Of a stretch of DNA of 64,000 bases, positions 23,465 through 36,270 are shown piece by piece; position 1 is the first letter of the stretch; each line of letters starts with the position of its first letter. This DNA is from Fibrobacter sp. Lineage in GTDB: Bacteria > Fibrobacterota > Fibrobacteria > Fibrobacterales > Fibrobacteraceae. The position numbers and the translations under genes are program-made. The notes beneath the pieces are model-generated. The model saw only the letters and a list, made by a program, of their open reading frames with translations, did not search any database and was not told the origin of the DNA. The stretch covers positions 62,001 through 126,000 of the forward strand of contig JAKSIC010000005.1 in the NCBI GenBank assembly GCA_024399015.1. The letters run 5' to 3'.

Positions 23465-24439
23465 TTAAGACAGCATAAACATTCCTGCAAGGAACACCAC
23501 AAGGCCTCCTGCAAAGGAAGCCACAATGTGGATGTAGGCCGCCAGCCATCCGGTTTTGGCGGCTCCTTTGTCTATGCCCTTTTTCAGGGCGATGGCAGCA
23601 ATTCCAAACAACATATTGGTGACGGTCATGCCCACACAAACTGCTCCTGCGGAAGCAAGGGCCAACGCCACCATGGAATTCAAGAGACAGAACAGAACAA
23701 TCAAGGCCACAGCTGGGCACGGCACAATTCCCGTTACGGCAGCCACCCCAATCAGTTCCTTCCAGGAAGTATTTTTTGAAACAGCAACTTCGCCGGCTTT
23801 ATTTTCGCCGATGCGACGGTTTCTCAAAAGTTTCACCAAATCATGGATGGCAATTCCTATGAGCAAAAGTCCAGTGAAGCAAACCAGTCCGTAGCTCACT
23901 TTTTCTATTCCCTGACGCCCCAATTCAAAGGAAGGGAACACGGCTGCTTTCAAAATTCCGTACAAAACAAAAAGTAAAATCACGGCGCTCAAGGTGTGAG
24001 TAAAAGTAATTCCCGCGCCAAGGGCAATACCATGTTTCCACTTTCCCTTTCGCGCAAGGAAATACCCCACCACAATGGATTTTCCGTGGCCAGGCCCTAG
24101 AGCGTGAAGCATTCCGTACAAAAAGCAAATCAGAAGAAAGGTCCAGATAATGCCGGATTCACCATTCTTCATGGCAGTGATTTTCGCGGCAATATTTTCA
24201 CGAAGTTTCTTCTGCTGGTCTGCAAAATTTTCCGTTAGGCAAAAAACATGAGTGTCATGAATACTTACAACAGACTGATTGTCTTGAGCTACAGTATCGG
24301 GGAACGGCGTCGATTCAACAGTTTCAGTAGATGCCGTCGAACCATCCATCGAAAACTTTTTCTTTGTAACGGCAGAAAAAGAGAACTGTGCACAAAGCAG
24401 CAACAAGGCAACAAACAATGTGGCTACAGACGATCTCAT
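23465..24439 (-). CDS. NicO-family nickel/cobalt transporter
   Basis: The 324-residue membrane protein begins with a signal-like segment and a ~100-residue extracytoplasmic region. Several transmembrane helices follow, with the signature HALGPGHGKS, a second motif TFTHTLSA, and VTGIVPCPAV. NicO/RcnA-type proteins move Ni2+ or Co2+. The gene overlaps the DUF1007 gene by 4 bp (ATGA), so the pair is translationally coupled. The direction of transport and the metal are not decided by the sequence. Confidence 0.88.
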   Translation of the reverse strand: MRSSVATLFVALLLLCAQFSFSAVTKKKFSMDGSTASTETVESTPFPDTVAQDNQSVVSIHDTHVFCLTENFADQQKKLRENIAAKITAMKNGESGIIWTFLLICFLYGMLHALGPGHGKSIVVGYFLARKGKWKHGIALGAGITFTHTLSAVILLFVLYGILKAAVFPSFELGRQGIEKVSYGLVCFTGLLLIGIAIHDLVKLLRNRRIGENKAGEVAVSKNTSWKELIGVAAVTGIVPCPAVALIVLFCLLNSMVALALASAGAVCVGMTVTNMLFGIAAIALKKGIDKGAAKTGWLAAYIHIVASFAGGLVVFLAGMFMLS

Positions 24440-25014
24440 TTCTTGAACCTCACATAAAGGCCCTCCACATAGGATCTAAAGTCCTGCATCAAGGTCAGGC
24501 CTTCAAGACTATCGTCATAATAATCCACTTCTAACGCATCAGGAGCTTTGGCGTCAGAATTACCCATGTCAGAAGTGACCTGAATATAATTCGACGGATC
24601 AGCAACAACTATAACCAGGAACTTGTATTCATTTGAAACAGGAACGGAAAAACGAATCAGGTAATCCAAGACCAGTTTCCCATTTTTTTTCCTCGCCTGG
24701 AAATTTTCAACATTCAGCGCAGGCAAAAATTTCGTTCCACTCAAAACGTAGTTGTAATAGTTCTGCTTGGCAAGAGGATCCAAAACGGCGATTTTCAACG
24801 ATTCCAATTCTTTTTTTGAAAGCGAGCCATCATCATTTGCGTCGGCAGCAGCGAACATGGAAGTACCATAAATCTCGTCATATTCCCAATGGTTCTGAAC
24901 ACCGATAAACCCAGTCTCGTCAAACACAGCCTGAACAGTCACATCCGCAAACACATGCGGGTGCGCCCAGGACATGGCGCTGAGCAAAACCAGAAATAAG
25001 AAAAAAAGTCTCAT
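24436..25014 (-). CDS. DUF1007 periplasmic metal-binding-type protein
   Basis: The 192-residue protein has a signal peptide (MRLFFLFLVLLSAMSWA) followed at once by HPHVFADV, the metal-ligand-like start typical of DUF1007. A complete 12-residue EF-hand loop, DANDDGSLSKKE, lies near residue 60. DUF1007 genes commonly pair with NicO/HupE-type transporters, as here. A role as periplasmic metal chaperone for the adjacent transporter is inferred. Confidence 0.85.
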   Translation of the reverse strand: MRLFFLFLVLLSAMSWAHPHVFADVTVQAVFDETGFIGVQNHWEYDEIYGTSMFAAADANDDGSLSKKELESLKIAVLDPLAKQNYYNYVLSGTKFLPALNVENFQARKKNGKLVLDYLIRFSVPVSNEYKFLVIVVADPSNYIQVTSDMGNSDAKAPDALEVDYYDDSLEGLTLMQDFRSYVEGLYVRFKK

Positions 25015-25132
25015 TACAAATCAATATATAAAATATTGACATTCTGCAAAAAAGTAGCACTTTTTTTTGCCCACCCTATTTACACAAATGTTAGCTTTAA
25101 CTAATTTTAATTTAGCAATTTGGGAGTTATAA

Positions 25133-25738
25133 ATGTCCTGCTTATCACAGTATCACGACTTGATTTTATGCATCGTATCCGCATTGGAAGCAAGAGATTC
25201 CTATACCAGTTTTCATTCGTCCCGCGTGGCAGAAATGGTGGAAGCCCTATGCAGGTTTATGGGCATCACCGGAGATCAGGAAGAGCTTTTTCACATTGCA
25301 GCGCATCTGCACGACGTGGGTAAAATCGGGATTCGTGACGACGTTCTTTTGAAAGCAGGACGCCTTAACGACGAAGAATGGGAGATTATGAAATCCCACT
25401 CCATGCAAGGTTACGAAATTTTGCGGAAAGCAAAACTCTTTGAAGATGTAGCAGTCATTGTCCGCGGTCACCATGAACGCTGGGACGGCAAGGGCTATCC
25501 CGACGGATTGGCAGGCAACAATATTCCCTTGGGATCAAGACTGATTGCCATCGCCGACTCCATCGACGCCATGATTTCAGACCGTCCGTACCGCAAGGGA
25601 TTGGACGTTTCCATCTGCAAGGAAGAAATAAAAAAGAACGCCGGAATCATGTACGATCCCGACGTAGTTAAAGCCGCAATGGACAACTGGGAAGAACTGA
25701 TTAAGGCAGGCACCGATATCTGCGTTATGCAGAAGTAG
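25133..25738 (+). CDS. Stand-alone HD-GYP phosphodiesterase
   Basis: The 201-residue protein is almost entirely an HD-GYP domain. Metal-binding segments are HSSRVAEM, AAHLHDVGKIG and HHERWDGKGYPDGL, the last containing the GYP signature. Such domains hydrolyse cyclic di-GMP or related dinucleotides. There is no receiver, PAS or membrane domain, so input must come from a partner. GGGAGTTATAA precedes the ATG. It converges with the DUF1302 gene with 5 bp between the stop codons. Confidence 0.92.
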   Translation: MSCLSQYHDLILCIVSALEARDSYTSFHSSRVAEMVEALCRFMGITGDQEELFHIAAHLHDVGKIGIRDDVLLKAGRLNDEEWEIMKSHSMQGYEILRKAKLFEDVAVIVRGHHERWDGKGYPDGLAGNNIPLGSRLIAIADSIDAMISDRPYRKGLDVSICKEEIKKNAGIMYDPDVVKAAMDNWEELIKAGTDICVMQK

Positions 25739-25743
25739 GCTGC

Positions 25744-26940
25744 CTAGAAAAAGAACTTTCCCTTGGCCCAGAATTCGGAATTGTGTTTATACATTCCGAA
25801 GAATCCTTCATCGCCAAAGACATGGTCATAGCCTCCGTACAATGTAATCTGATCATTCAGAGCATATTGTACAGCAAACCTGCCGAAGAATCCTGATTCG
25901 CTAAAATCATATTCTCCAGAAAGAGCCACTTCCATGGTACTTTGCAAAAGGGATTTTGAAATCTGGAAGCTTGCCGAAGACAAATGGTCACCATTGTACT
26001 TGTAGGCATACTGAGCCATCAAAGTCCATTCATGAGGAGCATTCCAGTCCACCCCTACAACACCGTTGAAAGTATTCTTATGGGTATAACCCATGCCATC
26101 CTTGTTGGCAACAGCTTCATCCAAGTATTCCGCAGCTTCCATACGAATCACGAAGGCATCTACAGGAATGGATACATCACCGCCAAGAACCGTCATGGGT
26201 TCATAAACGCCCTTCAAAATCGGGCCCTTTTCAGGATCCATTTCAACATAGGTGACAGGAGTCTTATTGAAAGTATGGAGAGCCGTCAAGGAGAAATCCA
26301 GATATTCCAGGAAGAATCGTAAACGAGTTCCGTATTCACAGTTCTTGATTCGTGCTTCCGGAGTTTCCAATTCCAGATTCAACTCTTCAGGAATTCTCAC
26401 ATGCCACGGGTTTGCAGGATCCGTAGGCAACTTGTCGAAACTAGCCACCGGCACAAAGATGAATTCTCCATTAAAGAAATCACCAAGGACCTTCAAATCA
26501 ACCGCATTCACCGCCATACGAATGTCGTCGTAATCGTTGGCGATAAATTCCGTATAATCCAAGGGAGAAATCAAATCTGTCACGCGAGACTCATCAGCCA
26601 CGCCCCAGACCACAATCTGCTTACCCACCTTGACTTCAATCCAATCGTTGGCGTAATCCAAGTAGGCTTCATTCAAGCTGAAACCAGTTTCTGATTCAAC
26701 GATTTTATTGTAGATGGCATTGGCGCTTACAAAGAAGGACGCATTGTCGTAAGAGCCCTTCAATTCCCCACGAACTCGCGTCCGAGAAGAAATCCAATCA
26801 TGAGGATATTCCCGCTGTAAAGCGTGGTAACTATCCACAAATCCGCTGAACTGAAGAGGAGATTCTTCCTGGGCCATAGCCCAGGAAAAACCGCCCAACA
26901 GCAGGGCGAATAAGGTCCTATCCAAAAATTTTGACAACAT
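25744..26940 (-). CDS. DUF1302-like outer membrane beta-barrel protein
   Basis: The 398-residue protein has a signal peptide ending at AMAQ, then alternating strands with aromatic girdles and a C-terminal strand ending in Phe (FWAKGKFFF), as in outer-membrane barrels. Motifs such as WIEVKVGKQIVVWG and the early SGFVDSYHA match the DUF1302 family, whose genes often sit with RND transporters. Its start overlaps the LolA-like stop by 1 bp (TAATG). It is the last gene of a five-gene operon that starts at 31178. Confidence 0.8.
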   Translation of the reverse strand: MLSKFLDRTLFALLLGGFSWAMAQEESPLQFSGFVDSYHALQREYPHDWISSRTRVRGELKGSYDNASFFVSANAIYNKIVESETGFSLNEAYLDYANDWIEVKVGKQIVVWGVADESRVTDLISPLDYTEFIANDYDDIRMAVNAVDLKVLGDFFNGEFIFVPVASFDKLPTDPANPWHVRIPEELNLELETPEARIKNCEYGTRLRFFLEYLDFSLTALHTFNKTPVTYVEMDPEKGPILKGVYEPMTVLGGDVSIPVDAFVIRMEAAEYLDEAVANKDGMGYTHKNTFNGVVGVDWNAPHEWTLMAQYAYKYNGDHLSSASFQISKSLLQSTMEVALSGEYDFSESGFFGRFAVQYALNDQITLYGGYDHVFGDEGFFGMYKHNSEFWAKGKFFF

Positions 26941-27713
26941 TATAAGCCTCGTTCCAGCTTATTCACCGTAAAGGTCTTAGGATCAATCTTGATATTGTAC
27001 TTCACATTGTTGAAGTACAATTCTGTGGCGTGATTAGACTGAACATTGTCAATACGCATCTTGCCGATGGTCCAGAAACCGTCAATCTGCTTGATGTCGC
27101 CAGTCTTGAATTTGCGCTGCAAGGATCCCATCTTGTCGAAGTAATCTACAGCCACCACCTTCAAGATATCCTTACGAATCCACATGATCTTCTTGGAGAA
27201 AACTTCATCAGCAGGATTCTTGGGAGTAGATTCCACCACATAGCAGTCAAAGCCATCCACCTTTTCGTCACGAAGGTACTTGTGGTTGTCTTCATCCACG
27301 TTGCGTTCGCCGATATCGTCATAAGTGAAATCAGAGCCCATGAAGTAATCGGTCTTGGAGCTGCTTCCGCTAATGCGGCGAGTCTTCTTCATGGCAGGGA
27401 GATAAAGCCACTGGTCATCAGACTTTCCCACTTCATCGTAATCCACCGTCAAGAAGCCTGTTCCCTTCACATCCTTCGGATAGGTAAAGAACATCACCTG
27501 CTTTGTGATCTTGCCTTCTTCCATGGCGAAGGAGGTAATCTTACGTTCACGAACACTGCCATTCTTGCTGATCAATTTCATATCCATTTCAGAAGAACGG
27601 GTATCTCCTTCAGGAACGTCGGACACCTTGACCATAATATCACGACCAGTCAGTTCGCCAGCAAAAAGTACAGAGGAAAGTGCCAATACGGTTGTTGCGA
27701 TAAACTTTTTCAT
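26940..27713 (-). CDS. LolA-like outer membrane lipoprotein-sorting family protein
   Basis: The 257-residue protein has a signal peptide ([18 protein letters not shown]) and a half-barrel pattern of strands typical of the LolA-like family (COG2834), with the motif [18 protein letters not shown]. Such periplasmic proteins can carry lipids or lipid-linked cargo between membranes. AAGGAGAATAAAA precedes the ATG. It lies 15 bp after the RND gene and overlaps the DUF1302 gene. This arrangement suggests it is the periplasmic shuttle of an export system, not the housekeeping LolA. Confidence 0.85.
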
Positions 27714-27728
27714 TTTTATTCTCCTTAT

Positions 27729-30098
27729 TTATTTTTTCTTCTTGTTAAAGGGGCGGACAATATAGATGAGGGCGGGAGTCAAAGTGTAGTCCGCAATCAA
27801 GGCCGCAAGTAAGCCTGCAATAGAAAGAATTCCGATTCTAGAGAGGGCATTCATTGGGCTGAATACAAAGATAAAGAACATGACGCACAAAATGATGGTG
27901 GTCATGGCCAAGGTCTTACCAATGCTCTGGAAAGTAGCCTTAATGGCCATCTTGTAGCTTTCACGATCATTGTTACCAACACGTTCCAGCTCATACTTGA
28001 TGTGGTTTGTCATGTGGATGGTATCGTCCACGGCGATACCCAAAATCATAGGCATCACAATCATGGTGATCATATCCAGAGGCATACCGAAGTAACCCAT
28101 GATACCGCCAATCAAGCAGACCGGAGCAATATTGGGAAGCATACCAATCAAACCTGCGCTAACACTACCGAAGGCAAGAATCATCAGGATAGCAATCATG
28201 ACAAAAGATCCAGCGAAGGAACGAAGCAAGCCCTTCACAAGCCTTCCGTTCATGGTGGCGTAATTCATCACTTCACCAACCACAGAAACCTTGGCGTTAG
28301 GCAAGAACTTCGTTGCGGCAACCTTGATGGAATCCAGATTTTTCACAATTTCATTGGCATCATAATTTGCCATTTCCACATGGATGTACGCAGTCTTGTA
28401 ATCTTCATCGATCTTGTCAAACAGAGCTTCCCCATCAGAGATTTCGTAGAGGAACAATAGCTGGGTCAGCATATCGGCTTCGTCAGGAGTCTTGTAGTAT
28501 TCCAAGGAGTCCCCGTTCAAAGTACGGTTCATTTCCTTCACCATCTGGGTGATGGAAGTAACACGAGGTTTTTCCCCCGAAATCTTCGTCAAGCTCAAGC
28601 CACCCAAGGATTCTTCCAACTGTTCAATGGACTTCATGTTGGCCGGTTCCTTCAAGGCATCCCCTTCCGGGAATTCAATCATGACTTCATAACTGTAAAG
28701 GCTACCCAACTTGCCATCAAGCATATCCAGCAATCTTGCCACATAGGGAATCTTTACCCCCATGGTCTTGGTATAGTCCATATTCACATCAATCTTTGTG
28801 GCACCAGGAATCTGCAGCAACATCACAACGCCAACTATAATAGCCACAGGAACAGCCTTTGTACAAACCTTCAAGGCCAGCTTTCCAAAATTCATATCCA
28901 TTTTGGTAGCACCCTGGGAAAGGGCGAAACTGGGATCAGGCTTTCCATCCTTGCCAAAGCTCATGAGAATAGGAATCAAGACCATCACATAGACAAACAC
29001 CATAAAGACGATGGCAGCCGAAATACCACCAGTCCAACGAATAGGCTTGATACCAGCAAACAAGAAGGAAAGGAGGGATGCCATAGTGGTGACCACGGTA
29101 AAGAAGATGGGCCAACCCGTTTCTTCCACAGCTTGAATTGCGGATTCCTTGCGGTTTCCCGACACGCGGAACTTCTGACGGAAGGCATTGATGTAATGCA
29201 CCGAGTAACCCACAGACAAGGCCATGCCCAAAATCACCGGAAGGGCGATAATGTTCTGATCACCCACAAGGCCAATCCAGCCGTTAATACCCAAAGCAGA
29301 GGCAATGGCAAAGACCGTGGAAATGGCAGGAACCACCACACCGCGAAGAGAGCGGACAAAGAAAATCAAGCAAAGGATGGAGATGATAAAGCCAAGGCCC
29401 ACACGAATGGCGCATTCGCTGCCGGCCACTTCACCTTCTTCCATTTCGGTATAGCTCATACCCGCAGGCAGAAACTTGTACTTGTCGCTTTTAAATTCAT
29501 CGGCAAAAATTACGTCACGAATTTTCGGGGTGATGTTATTTACGGCAAAGTCAATACCACCATCAAAAGGCAAGTAAGAAAGAACCAGCCAGCATTCCTT
29601 ACGGTCATCAGAAACAATGTTGTTGACCAGAGAAGTGCGGCTCATAATCAAGTCAACCTTAGCTTTCAAAGAATCCAGATTTTCCGGAATACCCTTTTCA
29701 AAAGGATCAATGATTTCAAAACCTTCATCATTTGCCACCGGAATAGAAAGGCGGCTAGTCAAGGATACCACCTTGTCAGCATAAGGAATTTCTGCTTCAA
29801 GGCGCTTGCCCACACGATCAATGGCCTTGAGAACTTCGGGAGTCATCACATCGTTGGCCCGCACCATCAAGGAGAAGTAGTCGTCGTTGCCGAAAATCTC
29901 CTTGAAATGATCTGTATCCTTTTTTATAGAATCCCAGTTGTCAAACCAGTTTTCTTCGTTGGAAGACAATTTCAACTGGCCCAGGCCAATGCATGAAATT
30001 ACAGTGAATAGAAAAATGGCCAACAGTATTGGCCACCGATACTTGATTTGCTTTCGGCCCAACTTACCGAAGAATTTATTGATGTCTGAAACAACCAT
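27729..30098 (-). CDS. RND-superfamily (MMPL) transporter
   Basis: The ATG at 30098 is chosen because GAGGAGGGAAAT sits right before it; the frame is open further upstream but that part is out of character. The product of about 789 residues has one N-terminal helix, a large periplasmic loop, a block of about five helices (around residues 230-400), a second periplasmic loop and a second helix block ending near the C-terminus. The MMPL/SSD-type repeat motifs ALPVILGMALSVGYSVHYINAF and MPMILGIAVDDTIHMTNH are clear, including the Asp pair in VDDT. Members export lipids and hydrophobic molecules using the proton gradient. The cargo is unknown. Confidence 0.9.
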   Translation of the reverse strand: MVVSDINKFFGKLGRKQIKYRWPILLAIFLFTVISCIGLGQLKLSSNEENWFDNWDSIKKDTDHFKEIFGNDDYFSLMVRANDVMTPEVLKAIDRVGKRLEAEIPYADKVVSLTSRLSIPVANDEGFEIIDPFEKGIPENLDSLKAKVDLIMSRTSLVNNIVSDDRKECWLVLSYLPFDGGIDFAVNNITPKIRDVIFADEFKSDKYKFLPAGMSYTEMEEGEVAGSECAIRVGLGFIISILCLIFFVRSLRGVVVPAISTVFAIASALGINGWIGLVGDQNIIALPVILGMALSVGYSVHYINAFRQKFRVSGNRKESAIQAVEETGWPIFFTVVTTMASLLSFLFAGIKPIRWTGGISAAIVFMVFVYVMVLIPILMSFGKDGKPDPSFALSQGATKMDMNFGKLALKVCTKAVPVAIIVGVVMLLQIPGATKIDVNMDYTKTMGVKIPYVARLLDMLDGKLGSLYSYEVMIEFPEGDALKEPANMKSIEQLEESLGGLSLTKISGEKPRVTSITQMVKEMNRTLNGDSLEYYKTPDEADMLTQLLFLYEISDGEALFDKIDEDYKTAYIHVEMANYDANEIVKNLDSIKVAATKFLPNAKVSVVGEVMNYATMNGRLVKGLLRSFAGSFVMIAILMILAFGSVSAGLIGMLPNIAPVCLIGGIMGYFGMPLDMITMIVMPMILGIAVDDTIHMTNHIKYELERVGNNDRESYKMAIKATFQSIGKTLAMTTIILCVMFFIFVFSPMNALSRIGILSIAGLLAALIADYTLTPALIYIVRPFNKKKK

Positions 30099-30106
30099 AT
30101 TTCCCT

Positions 30107-30129
30107 CCTCAAATCGTTTCCGATCGAGG
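30107..30129 (-). promoter_or_regulatory. GNRA-capped hairpin overlapping the RND ribosome-binding site
   Basis: On the minus strand CCTC-G-ATCG, loop GAAA, CGAT-TT-GAGG can pair. The 3' GAGG overlaps the GGAGG of the RND start, so translation could be modulated. Confidence 0.4.
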
Positions 30130-30156
30130 TTCGCTATAGCATTTTTCTTTTTTTTA

Positions 30157-30585
30157 TCACGCCAAAGCCAAAACCTTGCCCAGTTCCTGGCACTTGGATT
30201 TGCCATCATCATCGGGGGCATTTTCAATAGCCAGAGGATCGTCCACCAAAACAAGACCTGCAGAGGCAGCATCATTTTTCCAGGTATTCATGTATTCGCC
30301 ACCGCCCCAGCCGTAAGATCCGAACAGAACTACCTTCTTTCCAGAAAGAGCAGGTTTAATCTGTTCATACAAGGGCTGAAATTCGGAATCTTCAAGTTCC
30401 TCAGCACCCATAGCAGGGCAACCCAAGGCAAACTTATCAAAGACAGTAGCCGCATCAGCAGAGAAATCAGAAGTAGCGAAAACAGAGGCATCGCCACCAG
30501 CAGCCTGCACGCCAGCAGCAACTTCCTTAGCCATCATTTCCGTGTTTCCGGTACCAGACCAGTATACAATTGCAATTTTGCTCAT
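30157..30585 (-). CDS. Flavodoxin
   Basis: The 142-residue protein has the FMN phosphate-binding loop WSGTGNTEMM (residues 9-18) and the later flavin-contact loop FGSYGWGGGEYMNTW. Flavodoxins replace ferredoxin as electron carriers when iron is scarce, which fits its position downstream of a DtxR-type box and next to a DUF3793 gene. It begins 32 bp after the DUF3793 stop and lies 58 bp before the RND start. Confidence 0.95.
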   Translation of the reverse strand: MSKIAIVYWSGTGNTEMMAKEVAAGVQAAGGDASVFATSDFSADAATVFDKFALGCPAMGAEELEDSEFQPLYEQIKPALSGKKVVLFGSYGWGGGEYMNTWKNDAASAGLVLVDDPLAIENAPDDDGKSKCQELGKVLALA

Positions 30586-30617
30586 TTTTTGTTCCTTATA
30601 TTAATTTTAGATTCCTG

Positions 30618-31178
30618 TCAACTTGCGACCGTCAAACGATCCAAGGAAATACCCTGTTCAAACTGATTCCAAAGAACTTCCTTGCATTTTTTAAATACTT
30701 CAAAGATATGCATGGAATTTTGCACATCGTTATAGACCTTCCAACAGCCAATCTGTTTGTAATTACGGCCACCATAGGCAATAAAGTCCCGAACATCATC
30801 CAAGGGGTAACCCAAAAAGATTCCCACTTCATGTGGAAAACAAACGGACTTTTTCATTCGATTCTGAAACACTCTTAAAAGAGATTCCAAATCAAAGGCC
30901 GAATAGCCGAAACCCTTCAGAAAATTCTGAATATCACAGGAAAGGGAAAGTTTTTCCAGATCGCAACCTCTATAGACATAGATGTAGTAGCGACCTCTTT
31001 TTTCGGCAATCACCCGTGCGAAAACGCCCTTGGGATTCAAACTTCGATTCCATCGTGCAATAATTTCGCACAGCAGAACACCATCTGCTATTTCCAAGCA
31101 GAAAAGGTTTCCAACTTTCACACCCGCAAGAGTGGGTGCGCACTGTCGCACCAAACAAGAATCGAACATTCTAGCCAT
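30618..31178 (-). CDS. DUF3793 family protein
   Basis: The 186-residue protein matches DUF3793 through the block HEVGIFLGYPLDDVRDFI near residue 135 and the closing WKVYND region. Function is not established. Members are often found with flavodoxins, as here. Two ATGs (31178 and 31169) are candidate starts; neither has a normal ribosome-binding site because the promoter ends only a few bases upstream. It is the first gene of the flavodoxin-RND-LolA-DUF1302 operon. Confidence 0.85.
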   Translation of the reverse strand: MARMFDSCLVRQCAPTLAGVKVGNLFCLEIADGVLLCEIIARWNRSLNPKGVFARVIAEKRGRYYIYVYRGCDLEKLSLSCDIQNFLKGFGYSAFDLESLLRVFQNRMKKSVCFPHEVGIFLGYPLDDVRDFIAYGGRNYKQIGCWKVYNDVQNSMHIFEVFKKCKEVLWNQFEQGISLDRLTVAS

Positions 31179-31180
31179 AA

Positions 31181-31211
31181 TTAGATTAAGCTAACTTTTA
31201 AAAAAGGTCAA
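31181..31211 (-). promoter_or_regulatory. Promoter with DtxR-type box on the -10
   Basis: On the minus strand there is a -35 TTGACC (31206-31211), a 17-bp spacer and a -10 TAATCT (31183-31188). The box TTAGATTAAGCTAA (31181-31194) covers the -10. The predicted transcript would start at or within a few bases of the DUF3793 start codon. Confidence 0.7.
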
Positions 31212-31212
31212 A

Positions 31213-31290
31213 TATTTCCCGCCCACGGCGCACACCGGGGCGGGTAACCCTTCCAGCTCTATGAGGTAACGAACTTCGAGCTGGGCGGAG
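31213..31290. other. Structured intergenic region downstream of the porin
   Basis: Stems CCCGCCC/GGGCGGG (31218-31224, 31238-31244) and CCAGCTC/GAGCTGG (31253-31259, 31278-31284) can form. CCGCCCA (31219-31225) can alternatively pair with TGGGCGG (31282-31288). It may be the porin terminator or a small structured RNA. Confidence 0.4.
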
Positions 31291-31321
31291 GTTTTATGGC
31301 AACTTAACTATCCGCTCGCAA

Positions 31322-32452
31322 TTAGAATGCGAATACGGTTTCCAAACCGAGGTTCAGACCAACACCATCAACATCGGAATCATCACCGATACCAACATTA
31401 ACCATGGCAAAACCTGTAATTTCCAAGCCTTCCACCGGAGTAAAGTAGGCGCGAACACCCAAATCCAAGGTAGACTTGTCTTCATTCACATCGGTAGTGC
31501 GAGAATGATATTCAACAGGAACACCCAAGGTCAGGAAGTCGAGAACACCAAAGCTGGGTTCTACATAACCAAAGAAATATTCAGGAATTTCATCGCCATG
31601 ATCAATTGGAGCCTTGTCATCAAAGAGAGCATAGAACAAAGAACCCTTCACATTGACTGCGCCCAATTCCAAGGACGGTTCCACCAAGAGGGCATGGGTT
31701 GCACCCGGTTCATCTTCTCCAAGGTTGTCCATATGGAGACCATAGACCGCATGGAGGCCTACAACGCCGAACTTCAAATTCGCATCGATACCGGCATGAA
31801 GTTCATTATGCTTAGGTTCCTGATAGGACTTATAATCCACATAGGGGCGGATTGTTTGTTCACCAAGGCCCAATTCGTAGGCTACATGCGCGTCATAAGC
31901 AACGCCTACGCACGATTCTTCACCATCTTCAACAACGCAAACTTGATTGTCGTTGTCACCGCGACCAAAGCCAAGGCCAAAAACAAAGCCATTATAGTCA
32001 ACTTCAACTCCTCGGATGTCGTGTTCTGCCATACCGGCGGCATTATCTGCCGGGTCATCATATTCATAGTAGTTCTGGAAAGCGCCTTCAGAGAACGTCA
32101 GGTCACCAGCCTTAATCACAAAGTTTTCGCTCTTGGTATACTGAACGAAAGCACCGTTATAGATTGCCGCAGGATCGGCCGTTTCACCATCAGCTTCCAG
32201 CTGGACTTCCGCAGACCACTGATCATTGAACTTTACTGCAAAATTCAGATCAAAGGTGGTTGCATATTCATGGTTCACCTTGTCGTCATTGATAAGGTCG
32301 CCAGTGTAAGCGTCAAATTCCACTTCACCAGAAATTGCGACTTCAGGACCCTTGGATTCTGCAGCGGATTCAGCGGAAGCGGCTTCTTCCGCAAAAGCGT
32401 TTGCAGCAAGGAGAGAAGCCGACATTAAACCAAATGCGATATTGTATTTCAT
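31322..32452 (-). CDS. Outer membrane porin-like protein
   Basis: The 376-residue protein has a signal peptide (MKYNIAFGLMSASLLAANAFA), a short Ala/Glu/Ser-rich linker, then many alternating beta strands and a C-terminal Phe (LGLETVFAF), as in trimeric porins. I cannot tell the substrate. The mature protein is acidic. Its leader carries the same 14-bp DtxR-type box as the DUF3793 operon, which suggests metal-controlled expression. AAAAAAGGATAAATA precedes the ATG. Confidence 0.8.
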   Translation of the reverse strand: MKYNIAFGLMSASLLAANAFAEEAASAESAAESKGPEVAISGEVEFDAYTGDLINDDKVNHEYATTFDLNFAVKFNDQWSAEVQLEADGETADPAAIYNGAFVQYTKSENFVIKAGDLTFSEGAFQNYYEYDDPADNAAGMAEHDIRGVEVDYNGFVFGLGFGRGDNDNQVCVVEDGEESCVGVAYDAHVAYELGLGEQTIRPYVDYKSYQEPKHNELHAGIDANLKFGVVGLHAVYGLHMDNLGEDEPGATHALLVEPSLELGAVNVKGSLFYALFDDKAPIDHGDEIPEYFFGYVEPSFGVLDFLTLGVPVEYHSRTTDVNEDKSTLDLGVRAYFTPVEGLEITGFAMVNVGIGDDSDVDGVGLNLGLETVFAF

Positions 32453-32542
32453 TATTTATCCTTTTTTCTTTTTGTTATAAACTTTAGGGGCTGTGTCGGG
32501 CATTGCCATCATCTAAAGGATGATTGCCACGCTATTTTTTAG

Positions 32543-32571
32543 CTTATACAAACTTTGTTAGATTAAGCTAA
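32543..32571 (-). promoter_or_regulatory. Porin promoter with DtxR-type box
   Basis: On the minus strand there is a weak -35 TTAGCT (32566-32571), a 17-bp spacer and a good -10 TATAAG (32543-32548). The box TTAGATTAAGCTAA at 32558-32571 overlaps the -35 and is identical to the box before DUF3793. A ~90-base leader with a small ATCATC/GATGAT hairpin follows. Confidence 0.6.
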
Positions 32572-32589
32572 TTAAGAGTTTGTAAATTA

Positions 32590-32621
32590 GGGCCGTTGGA
32601 GGAGACACGTTCCAACGGCCC
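32590..32621 (-). terminator. Strong hairpin after feoB
   Basis: A perfect 11-bp stem GGGCCGTTGGA/TCCAACGGCCC with a 10-base loop is extended by an outer GTAAAT/ATTTAC pairing. It lacks a good T-tract, so it could be a terminator or an mRNA 3' stabiliser between feoB and the porin promoter. Confidence 0.65.
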
Positions 32622-32646
32622 CGATTTACGTTGTTACAAAAGGTTA

Positions 32647-35331
32647 TTAGTCTTCGAATCTCTTCTGCTTGTTAGCCTTGATGCCGAAGAGCTTCAGGAA
32701 GATACCAGTACCGATCAGCACTATGACTGCAGTCACGATCCAGCCGGTGCTACCGCCCACAGGAATCTGGTAGAGAAGCACGGCAATGGCCCAAGCAAGG
32801 ATCGTCTGAACAGTCGCCATCAGCACGCCAAGACCCAGGCCGATTTCGCGAACCACAACGCCCATGGCAGCCAAGCAAGGCACGTACAGCAGGATGAATA
32901 CCAGGAAGGCAAACACCTGCCAGTTGAACCCGTCGTGACCGCCGTTATGGAAGTAGGAGCGAAGGTTAGCGTAGATGTCGGCAGTTTCGCTAAGGTCGCC
33001 TTCTTCAAGAGCGCCCATGGCGTCTTCGTCAAGTTCAATGCCGGCTGCAGCAAGCTTTGCAAAGACTTCTTCGCGGGTCTTTTCATCACCTTCTTCTTCG
33101 CCGAAGGTTTCGATAGCGGCGTATTCCTCGCAAGTCAAAACCTTTGCTTCCTGAATTTTATCCAAGGTTTCCTTCTTCAGTTCTGCAGCGCTTTGGGCTT
33201 CAAGTTCGCCAGAGGTTCCCAGGATGTCCGTAAGAGAGCCAAAGACTTCGCTGAGGTTTGCAGGGATAGAAGAGACTGCTTCAATGAATGCAGCCTTGAG
33301 ATCAGGAGCACCATCTTCCTCTTCTTCTGCAGGGCATTCGTCAACACCTGCGATGAGAGGCTTTTCTTCTTCGGCGGGAACTTCTGCTGCGGTGCTATCG
33401 GCGGCAGCCACAGTTTCTCCTTCTGGTGCCGGGGCGGTTTCAACAGCCGGGGCTTCCTCAGCGACAATTTCTGCGGCTTCAGAAGGTGCAGCGGGTTCAG
33501 CCTGAGGGCCTTCCACCGCTTCACTCTTCGGAGCCATGGAGTACAGAGAGTTCATAGTGCCGATGACAGCTTCCTTAGCCAGCAATCCGGTAAAGAGGGA
33601 AACGGATGCAGGCCAGTTGTCTTCTTCGACACCAAAGGGTTCGAACACCGGAGTAATGGTCTTGCCTACGGAGGAGAGCAGGCTGTTTTCAGAGTCTGCG
33701 TTGCCAGCAGTAAACTTGCCGTCCACATAGCCGAAAGCGTTGAGGAAGCCAAGGACAGCCACAGCAATGGTAATCACCTTACCGGCGCGAAGCACATAGT
33801 CCTTCAGCTTCAGCCAGGAGTGAATCAGCAGGGACTTCAACTTGGGCAAGTGATAGTTAGGCAATTCCATCACAAAGTTGCTGGATTGTCCCATAAAGAG
33901 GGACTTCTTCAGGAACAAGCCATAAATGATGGCGAATAGAATACCAACCAGGTAGAGGGCGAACACGATGGTTCCCGCCTGTTTTCCAAAGAAGGCTGCT
34001 GCGAACAATGCGTACACCGGAAGGCGAGCGCCACAACTCATGAAAGGCACCAGGAAAATAGTGAGGAAACGTTCGCGCTTGCTTTCGAGAACGCGAGAGC
34101 CCATAATGCCCGGAACGCCGCAACCAAAGCCCACCATCATGGGGACAAAGGCACGACCCGGCAAGCCCAGGAATCGCATAAAGCGGTCTGCCACAAAGGC
34201 AGCGCGAGCCATGTAGCCAGAGTCTTCCAGGAAGGTCAGGCACAGGAACATAAAGAAGATGACCGGAATGAAGGTAGACACGGTCTGGATACCGGCGCCA
34301 ACACCATTTGCAAGAATTGCAGTAACCCAAGCCGGTGCACCGATAACGTCGGAGAGCAAGTAGCCGAGACCATCTACAAAAACAGCACCGAAGAGCACAT
34401 CGAAGAAATCGATGAAAGCACTACCGATAGTCACTGCAACCCAGAACACCAGGTACATGACCACCAGGAAGATGGGCAGAGAAAGCCAGCGATTCAAGAG
34501 AATAGAATCCAGCTTGTCAGAGAAAGTCTTCTTGGAGCGATTGCCGACAATTACTTCGGAAGCGATTTCGTGAGCCATGCTGTAGCGGGCATCGGCCATG
34601 ACGAATTCAGATTCCTCACCCAGCTTTGCAGTAATTTCCTCGCGATTCAACTTGACTCCGGCAGCAGCAAACTTGTCTGCATAGCTGTTGCTATTGCCCA
34701 GGTACATGAGGGAAACCCAACGGGGGTCCGCATCCAGCATCTTTGCAACAGGAGCTACCTGAGGTTCCAATTCCTTCACCACAGTTTCAATCTTGTCGCC
34801 GTAGGTGAATTCAGTCGGGATGGCAATTTGGCTCGAGATAACATGGGCCATCTGGCTGATGAAATTGGTAATACTCTTTTCGCTCACTGCAGAAAGAGGG
34901 ATTGCGGGCACCCCGAAACGCTTAGAAAGAGCCTCAAGGTCAATATGGAGGCCACGCTTTTCGGCAATGTCCATCATGTTCACGGCAATGACCATGGGCT
35001 GCTGCATATCCACCAACTGTGAAGTCAGGAACATGTTGCGTTCCACATTGGTGGCGTCCATGATATTCACAATCAAGTCGGCTTCGCGTGTCAGCAAGAA
35101 ATCGACGGCGGCACGCTCATCTTCGGAATTAGCGAAGATGGCGTAAGTACCCGGAAGGTCCACCACGCGAATGTGGCGGGCGCCCAGATCAAAATAACCT
35201 TCCTTCTTTTCGACAGTAACGCCAGGCCAGTTGCCCACGCTTTGGCGGGAACCGGTGAGGGCGTTAAATAACGCGGTCTTACCGCAGTTGGGGTTACCTG
35301 CAATAGCAATAGTAAACGGTTTCGGTGCCAT
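32647..35331 (-). CDS. feoB: Ferrous iron transport protein B
   Basis: The 894-residue protein has an N-terminal G domain with G1 GNPNCGKTALFN, G3 DLPGTYA and G4 NMMD, then a polytopic membrane domain with Gate motifs (GCGVPGIMGSR, MSCGARLPVYALF). It imports Fe2+ across the inner membrane. It is longer than the E. coli protein (773 residues). The extra length is an Ala/Pro/Glu-rich acidic stretch (about 598-672) plus a soluble helical segment before the last helices. It follows feoA by 2 bp and is under the four DtxR-type boxes upstream of dtxR. Confidence 0.96.
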   Translation of the reverse strand: MAPKPFTIAIAGNPNCGKTALFNALTGSRQSVGNWPGVTVEKKEGYFDLGARHIRVVDLPGTYAIFANSEDERAAVDFLLTREADLIVNIMDATNVERNMFLTSQLVDMQQPMVIAVNMMDIAEKRGLHIDLEALSKRFGVPAIPLSAVSEKSITNFISQMAHVISSQIAIPTEFTYGDKIETVVKELEPQVAPVAKMLDADPRWVSLMYLGNSNSYADKFAAAGVKLNREEITAKLGEESEFVMADARYSMAHEIASEVIVGNRSKKTFSDKLDSILLNRWLSLPIFLVVMYLVFWVAVTIGSAFIDFFDVLFGAVFVDGLGYLLSDVIGAPAWVTAILANGVGAGIQTVSTFIPVIFFMFLCLTFLEDSGYMARAAFVADRFMRFLGLPGRAFVPMMVGFGCGVPGIMGSRVLESKRERFLTIFLVPFMSCGARLPVYALFAAAFFGKQAGTIVFALYLVGILFAIIYGLFLKKSLFMGQSSNFVMELPNYHLPKLKSLLIHSWLKLKDYVLRAGKVITIAVAVLGFLNAFGYVDGKFTAGNADSENSLLSSVGKTITPVFEPFGVEEDNWPASVSLFTGLLAKEAVIGTMNSLYSMAPKSEAVEGPQAEPAAPSEAAEIVAEEAPAVETAPAPEGETVAAADSTAAEVPAEEEKPLIAGVDECPAEEEEDGAPDLKAAFIEAVSSIPANLSEVFGSLTDILGTSGELEAQSAAELKKETLDKIQEAKVLTCEEYAAIETFGEEEGDEKTREEVFAKLAAAGIELDEDAMGALEEGDLSETADIYANLRSYFHNGGHDGFNWQVFAFLVFILLYVPCLAAMGVVVREIGLGLGVLMATVQTILAWAIAVLLYQIPVGGSTGWIVTAVIVLIGTGIFLKLFGIKANKQKRFED

Positions 35332-35333
35332 TG

Positions 35334-35618
35334 TTACACTCTCTTCAAATTCAATACGTTGCCTTCTTCCCTACGCAAGGAAAGGCGGTAGCTTAAGACA
35401 CTCACTTCGATGGGATCGCCCAAGGGAGCAATCTGCATCACTTCCAGAGTCACACCGCGCACAAGGCCCATGGAGAGCAACTTGGACTTGTATCGGGCAT
35501 CGCCATCGTTGTAGCCAACGATTTCGACCTTGTCACCCTTCTTCAGTTCAGAAAATTTCGGTTCGGCATTCCACTTCTTGGTGGACTTGGGAGAACCGCA
35601 GCCGCAATTACAGCTCAT
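35334..35618 (-). CDS. feoA: FeoA-domain protein
   Basis: The 94-residue protein ends in a complete SH3-like FeoA domain (LKKGDKVEIVGYNDGD, LLSMGLVRGVTLEVMQIAPLGDPIEV, LSLRREEGNVL). It begins with MSCNCGCG, a cysteine-rich tip that could bind iron or zinc. FeoA supports FeoB function. Its start overlaps the dtxR stop by 1 bp (TAATG) and its stop is 2 bp from the feoB start. Confidence 0.95.
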   Translation of the reverse strand: MSCNCGCGSPKSTKKWNAEPKFSELKKGDKVEIVGYNDGDARYKSKLLSMGLVRGVTLEVMQIAPLGDPIEVSVLSYRLSLRREEGNVLNLKRV

Positions 35619-36049
35619 TACTTACTCCTTGCAACCTTGGGCTTTTTAAGGCTTGCAGTTACAGTGATATTGGAAGGCTTCATGAAGTCTTCAATTTTCG
35701 ACAAAGTCTCAGCGGACAGAATATGCTCCATGCAGCAAGCGTCCTTATCGGCAATGGCTTCGGAAACACCGAGACGAATTAAGAATCCTTTCAGTAGGAT
35801 GTGACGGTTCAGGACATCAGCTGCAGCCTTCTCCCCCGCTTCCGTCAGTTCCACACCACTATAGGGCTCCTGTGTGACCAGGCCCAGCTTTTTCAATTCC
35901 AGGATGGCCTTTGCCACAGAAGGCATTTTCACGGAAAGAGCAGCGGCGATATCCTTGACACGGGCGATACCGTGGGCCATACGTAGCATATGAACCATTT
36001 CCAGATAGTCCTCTAGGCTCTGCGTGAGTTTGGTGTGTTCGTTTTCCAT
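35618..36049 (-). CDS. DtxR-family metal-dependent repressor
   Basis: The 143-residue protein has an N-terminal winged helix (KDIAAALSVKMPSVAKAILEL) and a dimerisation domain, but no SH3 domain, so it has MntR-like size. Metal-ligand-type residues are visible: Asp14/Glu17 (EDYLEM), His83 (RHILLKGF) and C105-x-x-E108-H109 (CCMEH). The cysteine matches the DtxR/IdeR iron-sensor pattern where MntR has Glu, so Fe2+ is the likelier co-repressor; Mn2+ is possible. GAGGTAACA precedes the ATG. It heads the feoA-feoB operon and is probably autoregulated. Confidence 0.92.
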   Translation of the reverse strand: MENEHTKLTQSLEDYLEMVHMLRMAHGIARVKDIAAALSVKMPSVAKAILELKKLGLVTQEPYSGVELTEAGEKAAADVLNRHILLKGFLIRLGVSEAIADKDACCMEHILSAETLSKIEDFMKPSNITVTASLKKPKVARSK

Positions 36050-36067
36050 TGTTACCTCTTTTTTGTT

Positions 36068-36139
36068 AGCCGAGACTAAAAATAGTTAACCTAGACTAAT
36101 TAGTCAAGGCTAATTTCAATATTTTTTAGTTATGACTAA
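36068..36139 (-). promoter_or_regulatory. dtxR-feoA-feoB promoter with four tandem DtxR-type boxes
   Basis: A minus-strand promoter has -35 TTGACT (36104-36109), a 17-bp spacer and -10 TATTTT (36081-36086). Four 14-bp boxes of form TTAR-N6-CTAA lie at 36068-36081, 36088-36101, 36102-36115 and 36126-36139. They cover the start-site side of the -10, the spacer, the -35 and the upstream flank. Confidence 0.8.
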
Positions 36140-36270
36140 CTTTTTCTTTTTCAACATTCATTTTTCGTTTGTTTTTCAGTACTTAGCGGGCGATAGCTGC
36201 GATGATCAAAGGTATTTATGCTATTTTATTGTTATAAATGAGGCAGAAGAAGGACCTCACTGGAGTTAGA

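Follow-up and report, generated by a model that had tools for sequence, protein, structure and literature searches.

The five-gene run on the minus strand at 25744-31211 of a 64,000-nucleotide stretch of a Fibrobacter sp. genome (contig JAKSIC010000005.1, positions 62,001 to 126,000; this whole stretch is called the window here) encodes a DUF3793 protein, a flavodoxin, an RND/MMPL permease, a LolA-like periplasmic carrier and a DUF1302 outer-membrane barrel, and it is on balance probably part of an iron-starvation locus to which an envelope exporter has been wired. In the proposed mechanism, the locally encoded DtxR protein would bind TTAG-N6-CTAA boxes when Fe(II) is plentiful and thus shut four transcription units, namely dtxR-feoA-feoB, a porin gene, DUF3793-flavodoxin (with RND-LolA-DUF1302 behind it) and DUF1007-nicO, and these four boxed units would switch on with falling iron. 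DUF3793 and flavodoxin would be one ancient iron-sparing pair, in which DUF3793, likely a Cys3-His metal or Fe-S protein, may act on or with the flavodoxin, and RND-LolA_like-DUF1302 would be a separate module of inner-membrane pump, periplasmic carrier and outer-membrane barrel that became attached downstream of flavodoxin and hence came under iron control. The gene content, the clustering and conservation of the boxes, the pairing of DUF3793 with flavodoxin and the linkage of the exporter to TonB can be read directly from the genomes; a job in iron acquisition for this type of exporter is what the sequences suggest.

The run looks as the earlier note had described it, with five head-to-tail genes that are separated by gaps of 32, 58 and 15 bp and then overlap by 1 bp, and all five exceed the Pfam cut-offs of their families in a profile scan. 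It belongs to a larger locus of dtxR-feoA-feoB, the porin gene, the run itself and DUF1007-nicO (Table 1). The boxes of the other units, the local dtxR gene and a structured RNA at 31211-31303 had escaped the earlier note. Six TTAG-N6-CTAA sites (N6 free) lie within 25000-36200, where 0.22 would be expected in these 11.2 kb as judged from 249 kb elsewhere in this genome (P about 1e-7), and the remaining 52.8 kb of the window have none. Three of them precede dtxR-feoA-feoB, and one each precedes the porin gene, DUF3793 and DUF1007-nicO. The exact word TTAGCTTAATCTAA occurs only twice genome-wide, at 31181-31194 and 32558-32571, and TTAGTTAAAGCTAA is found identically in the loci L048 and L055 (the genome of the window is G000; relatives are labelled with G numbers for genomes and L numbers for loci). 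The TTAG-N6-CTAA motif equals the core of the DtxR/IdeR box, and the DtxR-type box that had been noticed before DUF3793 matches this core. Of the 31 Fibrobacter relatives, 25 have a box in the 300 bp before DUF3793, with 0.19 expected in shuffles, and in the six box-less loci DUF3793 stands directly behind an ABC gene. The box is kept across loci at a position that depends on the clade: in the window clade it ends beside the DUF3793 ATG, in clade A it starts about 45 nt upstream of the gene, just after a TTGACA-18-TATATT promoter, and in clade B the upstream distance is 150-215 nt. In G044, six of the seven genome-wide box positions are at the feo/DUF3793 cluster or at an AraC gene beside the exporter-TonB operon. 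As the run is boxed within a cluster of boxed units, the operon can be regarded as one of the units of a compact regulon that has a DtxR gene of its own, and it is very likely that DtxR controls this locus; the conservation of the box supports such a control of DUF3793-flavodoxin in particular.

Other details of transcription are less clear-cut. The promoter that the earlier note had seen before DUF3793 did not hold up, since a scan at 9 of 12 matches detects no sigma-70 promoter there and promoter hits are at chance level (12 against 12.9). With a -10 element in the box (31188-31183), the transcript would begin about at the ATG (31178) and be leaderless. As to the proposed single transcription unit, the gap between flavodoxin and the RND gene contains no intrinsic terminator, the scored ones nearby being inside coding sequence, and the total of intrinsic terminators is near chance (12 against 8.7 +/- 2.7 expected); the five genes are presumably co-transcribed. 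Two lineages also have a TTAG-N6-CTAA site about 115-125 bp before nuoB (G000:C22:19030 = L176:9031; G003:C1:775838), where a direct DtxR control of complex I is possible.

That metal starvation is the signal, as had been proposed, is reasonable, and because FeoAB and flavodoxin are encoded in the locus, iron is the likeliest metal, but on the side of the regulator the metal-ligand set is mixed between MntR and DtxR. The local protein clearly belongs to the DtxR family, with subtype models below cut-off. The regulon could thus also respond to manganese or another divalent metal with the local DtxR being an MntR, and this would agree with MntR as nearest model (below cut-off) and as nearest PDB structure, with the MntR-type Asp14/Glu17 pair in the PDB alignment, where the His/Glu/His ligands are retained as well, and with the neighbourhood of NicO and, in relatives, of a P1B ATPase with a DUF1490-like small protein. 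It is nevertheless improbable, as a Cys occupies the position of MntR Glu99 / DtxR Cys102, like in DtxR and IdeR, as FeoAB are encoded in the same operon as dtxR, and as flavodoxin is a classical iron-sparing protein and the box is the DtxR/IdeR core. In relatives, tandem dtxR paralogues are found in G008 (L041:35-1047, L170:12068-13044), and G005 and G029 have a further dtxR-feoA-feoB cluster, which carries boxes of its own and is separated from the first by about 13 kb (L173:18687-20000, L174:18122-19000).

The most constant feature of the run is its first gene pair. Flavodoxin directly follows DUF3793 in 31/31 Fibrobacter relatives, and outside the genus, mostly in Clostridia, it flanks DUF3793 in 49 of 55 loci, of which 13 have FeoB, 17 have a P1B ATPase, and none has an RND match near DUF3793. 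The earlier note had taken DUF3793 for a dedicated part of the exporter; as its neighbour outside Fibrobacter is flavodoxin with no RND gene nearby, DUF3793 is a flavodoxin partner rather than an exporter component, and its assignment to the exporter was rejected. Four residues are conserved in 80 DUF3793 sequences, namely C13 (97%), C113 (96%), H116 (100%) and C165 (100%), a set suggestive of a site for a metal or an Fe-S cluster. An AlphaFold2 model from 54 sequences reached a pLDDT of 96 (an earlier one from 12 sequences was poor, with 66), and its comparison with the PDB gave no convincing match (best E 5e-3, TM 0.28). The protein likely is a Cys3-His metal protein, about which a full-text literature search for DUF3793 returned nothing relevant.

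The exporter genes have a more mobile history. The five-gene order is not widely conserved: within the window clade, flavodoxin-RNDa-LolA-DUF1302 is found in G000 and G035, and G055 has the same order interrupted by a P1B-ATPase module after flavodoxin (RNDa is the permease of the window). Since this order is limited to three close species and the DUF3793-flavodoxin pair is present in all 31, the five-gene order is young and the pair is old. In clade A, the order is ABC-(box)-DUF3793-flavodoxin-(TilS and others)-RNDa, with RNDa behind flavodoxin either directly or with inserts, and an RNDb-LolA-DUF1302 trio follows about 10 kb on. This trio is on one strand with TonB(-ExbB-ExbD) behind it in 8/8 loci, ExbB/D being past the end of the stretch in one of them. 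Clade B has dtxR-feoA-feoB-porin-DUF3793-flavodoxin-DUF1490-like-P1B ATPase and carries the exporter elsewhere in the genome, there as TonB-ExbB-ExbD-RNDb-LolA-DUF1302 on one strand in 11/11 loci, with ExbD and RNDb almost contiguous; the trio is followed by an AraC gene whose start bears one to three DtxR boxes. The trio is thus linked to TonB in 19/19 loci over both sister lineages, and in L063 and L081 of clade B a TonB-dependent receptor is encoded nearby, the nearest model of which is the myxochelin siderophore receptor MxcH, below cut-off.

With respect to its type, the exporter is best read as an AmeABD-like (HAE3) envelope exporter. The best NCBIfam model for RNDa is TIGR00921 (HAE3) with 192.6 bits, below the cut-off of 351.9, PDB matches of RNDa to HpnN and MmpL3 are weak, and the LolA-like carrier has a solved close relative (PDB 9tp6, E=2e-87). 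AmeABCD is a precedent for a cluster of RND, DUF1302 and DUF1329/LolA proteins (PMC6394551), and in Porphyromonas and Prevotella MMPL/LolA-like operons are up 13- to 223-fold in low iron (PMC10434189). The iron association of the exporter that the earlier note had proposed holds in so far as it recurs in several arrangements inside the genus, and it can be called good, in the sense of probable. Besides the mixed ligand set of the regulator and the restriction of the five-gene order to three close species, one of them with the inserted module, several further findings weigh against this explanation. The TonB-linked RNDb is a different RND that is only about 32% identical to RNDa; other Fibrobacterota genera commonly have the trio without iron genes, often beside TetR-like genes (TetR by eye; some of their barrels are below the DUF1302 cut-off); and related proteins of Pseudomonas putida are required for growth on Tween 20 (PMC10866462), possibly pointing to a lipid-related role by analogy. 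The ancestral job of the trio therefore need not be iron, and as it occurs in Fibrobacterota without iron genes, the exporter is regarded as an ancestral module that was wired to iron within Fibrobacter.

The same findings give some room to the view of the exporter as a generic pump for lipids or hydrophobes in membrane homeostasis that came behind flavodoxin by rearrangement, with iron control being incidental. The order behind flavodoxin is indeed reshuffled among close species, with the P1B-ATPase module before, after or not found, and relatives of the exporter act on monoterpenes (PMC6394551) or on Tween 20 (PMC10866462). Such a pump is rather unlikely, because each main lineage examined in the genus has homologous trios together with TonB-ExbBD or with DtxR-boxed genes, and because the MMPL/LolA-like operons of Bacteroidetes are strongly induced by low iron (PMC10434189). 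A further candidate is the secretion of a self-made metallophore, and DtxR-box control as well as the export of mycobactin by MMPL pumps, a precedent for siderophore export by MmpL4/5 (PMC12803245), would be in line with it. No biosynthesis genes adjoin the trio, and a search of G000, G055, G035 and G044 for condensation domains of nonribosomal peptide synthetases (NRPS) found none, with synthetases of the NRPS-independent (NIS) type and other routes outside the search. This cargo, which the earlier note had considered, is highly improbable, and an own NRPS siderophore was rejected for want of a condensation domain. For a wiring to iron, a cargo with a role in iron acquisition is favoured as the trios of the sister lineages sit with TonB-ExbB-ExbD, in one lineage together with a siderophore-type receptor and a DtxR-boxed AraC gene. 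The likeliest cargo would be an amphiphilic molecule of this kind, such as a siderophore from neighbours that would be returned to the outside once stripped of its iron, the iron being passed to FeoB. The return of such a siderophore-like carrier is favoured by the linkage to TonB and the receptor together with the lack of NRPS; as a prediction of the cargo it is weak and doubtful, and outward is the presumed direction of transport.

Several observations concern genes that come and go around the run. In clade A loci, such as L041:9738-14160, an AraC gene and an ABC exporter-type gene are found directly upstream of DUF3793-flavodoxin. In relatives, the DUF3793 operon or its surroundings carry, at shifting places, the genes of a P1B heavy-metal ATPase and of a DUF1490-like (PacL1-type) small protein (L052:4568-6911, L048, L055, clade B), and P1B ATPases are near DUF3793 also in Clostridia; a search for the ATPase in the genome of the window had no match, an empty result that proves little. 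In DUF3793-less genomes, short remnants of ATPase and RND genes near the iron cluster (L168:4165-4242, L174:4095-4642) suggest a loss of the module over primary absence. An HD-domain gene adjoins the module (window 25133-25738, plus strand), and its relatives are also beside the P1B ATPase in Clostridia loci (L226:8751-9215; L259:11219-11767), a pattern hinting at the shared transfer of a larger block. The porin-like protein has no Pfam or NCBIfam match and is called a porin for its signal-peptide-like N-terminus and sequence character.

A conserved structured RNA is encoded between the porin gene and the DUF3793 box. It consists of GCCAUARAA, helix P1, a covarying stem P2 with the apical loop CGUUACCUCA, and a terminator-like hairpin, in this order. 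With the covariance model R1, 23 Fibrobacter genomes each show a single full-length copy, and clade B has an extra short match at the terminator of the porin gene. Changes on both sides, of a compensatory kind, are seen in 14 of 23 pairs, and 93.6% of cells pair in contrast to 82.5% in shuffles, in an alignment that had been adjusted to the structure. The RNA has no match in Rfam. In four genomes without DUF3793, the RNA still follows the porin, before DUF1007-nicO, which is why it is a porin 3' element or a small RNA (sRNA) and not a DUF3793 riboswitch, an option that was rejected as first choice. It is a candidate iron-responsive sRNA. The loop complements GAGGUAAC at the starts of about 12 genuine genes, among them aconitase, ilvD, nuoB, nuoH, nuoI, nuoN and dtxR (names assigned by eye from sequence), and GAGGTAAC, a start-region word complementary to the loop, has its sites in the genome of the window at these seven genes. 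A pairing with mRNAs of iron proteins may be hypothesized from this; duplex energies are circular here, as the targets had been chosen by the seed, the loop differs in G008 and G030, and co-inheritance failed, as GAGGTAAC persists at aconitase and nuoB/H/I in clade A genomes without detected RNA. There is close to an even chance that the RNA serves only the porin mRNA, as a passive element for its termination or processing that has no role in trans. This is in agreement with its terminator-like end, with the fact that window-clade and DUF3793-less genomes alike have it at the porin 3' end, and with the candidate sites in genomes without the element. For termination, however, the invariant 5' motif and the 10-nt apical loop would be superfluous, and in clade B the porin gene ends in its own terminator, behind which the RNA has an upstream region to itself, with a DtxR box, whereas the only upstream box for it in the window clade is that of the porin promoter.

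Taken to its end, the argument leads to a joint proposal, in which TonB-ExbBD as uptake arm and RND-LolA-DUF1302 as release arm would form a siderophore import-and-return cycle, and 31211-31303 would be the first member of a new family of iron-responsive sRNAs with a loop that blocks ribosome binding on mRNAs of iron-sulfur proteins. That both parts apply together is unlikely. To our knowledge, an import-and-return cycle of such kind is in no description of the RND-LolA-DUF1302 exporter family. Fibrobacter is a major rumen cellulose degrader, open-access literature on Fibrobacter with DtxR and FeoB was not found, and the locus offers a compact regulon open to testing. The orphan exporter class RND/LolA-like/DUF1302 becomes tied to iron through several gene arrangements, DUF3793 gains a partner, a predicted site for a metal and a confident model that has no match in the PDB, and a structured RNA absent from Rfam is added.

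Table 1. Coordinates of the genes, boxes and RNA of the locus, and of sites complementary to the RNA loop
Feature	Position	Strand	Remarks
NicO/RcnA-type metal transporter	23465-24439	-	library scan of window proteins
DUF1007 protein	24436-25014	-	overlaps nicO, same strand
DtxR-type box TTAGTTAAAGCTAA	25091-25104	-	between HD gene and DUF1007-nicO
DUF1302 outer-membrane beta-barrel	25744-26940	-	398 aa; Pfam DUF1302 51.7 bits, cut-off 23.2
LolA-like periplasmic carrier	26940-27713	-	257 aa; Pfam LolA_like 215 bits, DUF1329 65.1 bits, both above cut-off
RND/MMPL permease RNDa	27729-30098	-	789 aa; Pfam MMPL 96 bits, above cut-off; nearest HAE3 subfamily
Short-chain flavodoxin	30157-30585	-	142 aa; Pfam Flavodoxin_1; TIGR01753 above cut-off
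DUF3793 protein	30618-31178	-	186 aa; Pfam PF12672 E=4e-52, 177 bits, cut-off 25.1
DtxR-type box TTAGCTTAATCTAA	31181-31194	-	ends just before DUF3793 ATG
Conserved structured RNA	31211-31303	-	between porin and DUF3793 box, just upstream of box
Porin-like predicted outer-membrane protein	31322-32452	-	376 aa; conserved beside FeoB in genus
DtxR-type box TTAGCTTAATCTAA	32558-32571	-	before porin gene
FeoB ferrous iron transporter	32647-35331	-	Pfam FeoB_N, Gate, FeoB_C
FeoA	35334-35618	-	open reading frame and conserved order; named from position and sequence, no profile (HMM) scan
DtxR/MntR-family metalloregulator	35618-36049	-	143 aa; NCBIfam MntR models below cut-off; PDB alignment to MntR
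TTAG-N6-CTAA box TTAGTCTCGGCTAA	36066-36079	-	before dtxR-feoA-feoB; kept in relatives
TTAG-N6-CTAA box TTAGCCTTGACTAA	36100-36113	-	before dtxR-feoA-feoB; kept in relatives
TTAG-N6-CTAA box TTAGTCATAACTAA	36126-36139	-	before dtxR-feoA-feoB; kept in relatives
GAGGTAAC sites	G000:C22 6059-18905 (L274), C12:120600 (L273), C4:32094 (L270), window 36047-36058		nuo genes, aconitase, ilvD, dtxR

Among known systems, the closest to the exporter is AmeABCD of Castellaniella defragrans, which likewise combines an HAE3-like RND, a periplasmic protein of the DUF1329/LolA superfamily and a DUF1302 protein in one cluster (PMC6394551). Unlike there, a search of the run and its neighbours found no AmeC (COG4447) gene, the RND of the window is below the HAE3 cut-off, and the trio is in an iron regulon and not in a monoterpene island. 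Also in P. putida, DUF1302 and DUF1329 proteins (PP_0765/PP_0766/PP_2018/PP_2019) are functionally tied to an efflux transporter, but they are encoded at two loci, have a Tween 20 phenotype, and the passages seen of that report have no iron link (PMC10866462). The Bacteroidetes operons of the type TetR-ABC-ABC-MMPL-'outer membrane lipoprotein-sorting protein', such as PG1175-PG1181, share an iron-controlled MMPL with a LolA-like protein, but they have TetR in place of DtxR/AraC, no flavodoxin, and no reported DUF1302 partner (PMC10434189). An ABC gene, as in those operons, is also upstream of DUF3793-flavodoxin in Fibrobacter clade A. The mycobacterial siderophore exporters MmpL4/5-MmpS4/5 are controlled by IdeR and thus resemble the window system in having an MMPL-type pump under DtxR-family control; the latter has a LolA-like carrier and a DUF1302 barrel in place of an MmpS partner, has neighbours that include flavodoxin, and has no known siderophore. 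The RNA, finally, can be compared with RyhB and PrrF, which are iron-regulated, structured iron-sparing sRNAs with a terminator hairpin. It differs from them in its unrelated sequence, its place at a porin 3' end and a predicted pairing that is not co-inherited with the element, but like them it is a compact structured RNA of an iron-regulated locus that ends in a terminator-like hairpin and exposes a C-rich loop able to cover Shine-Dalgarno regions, and its predicted target set is RyhB-like.

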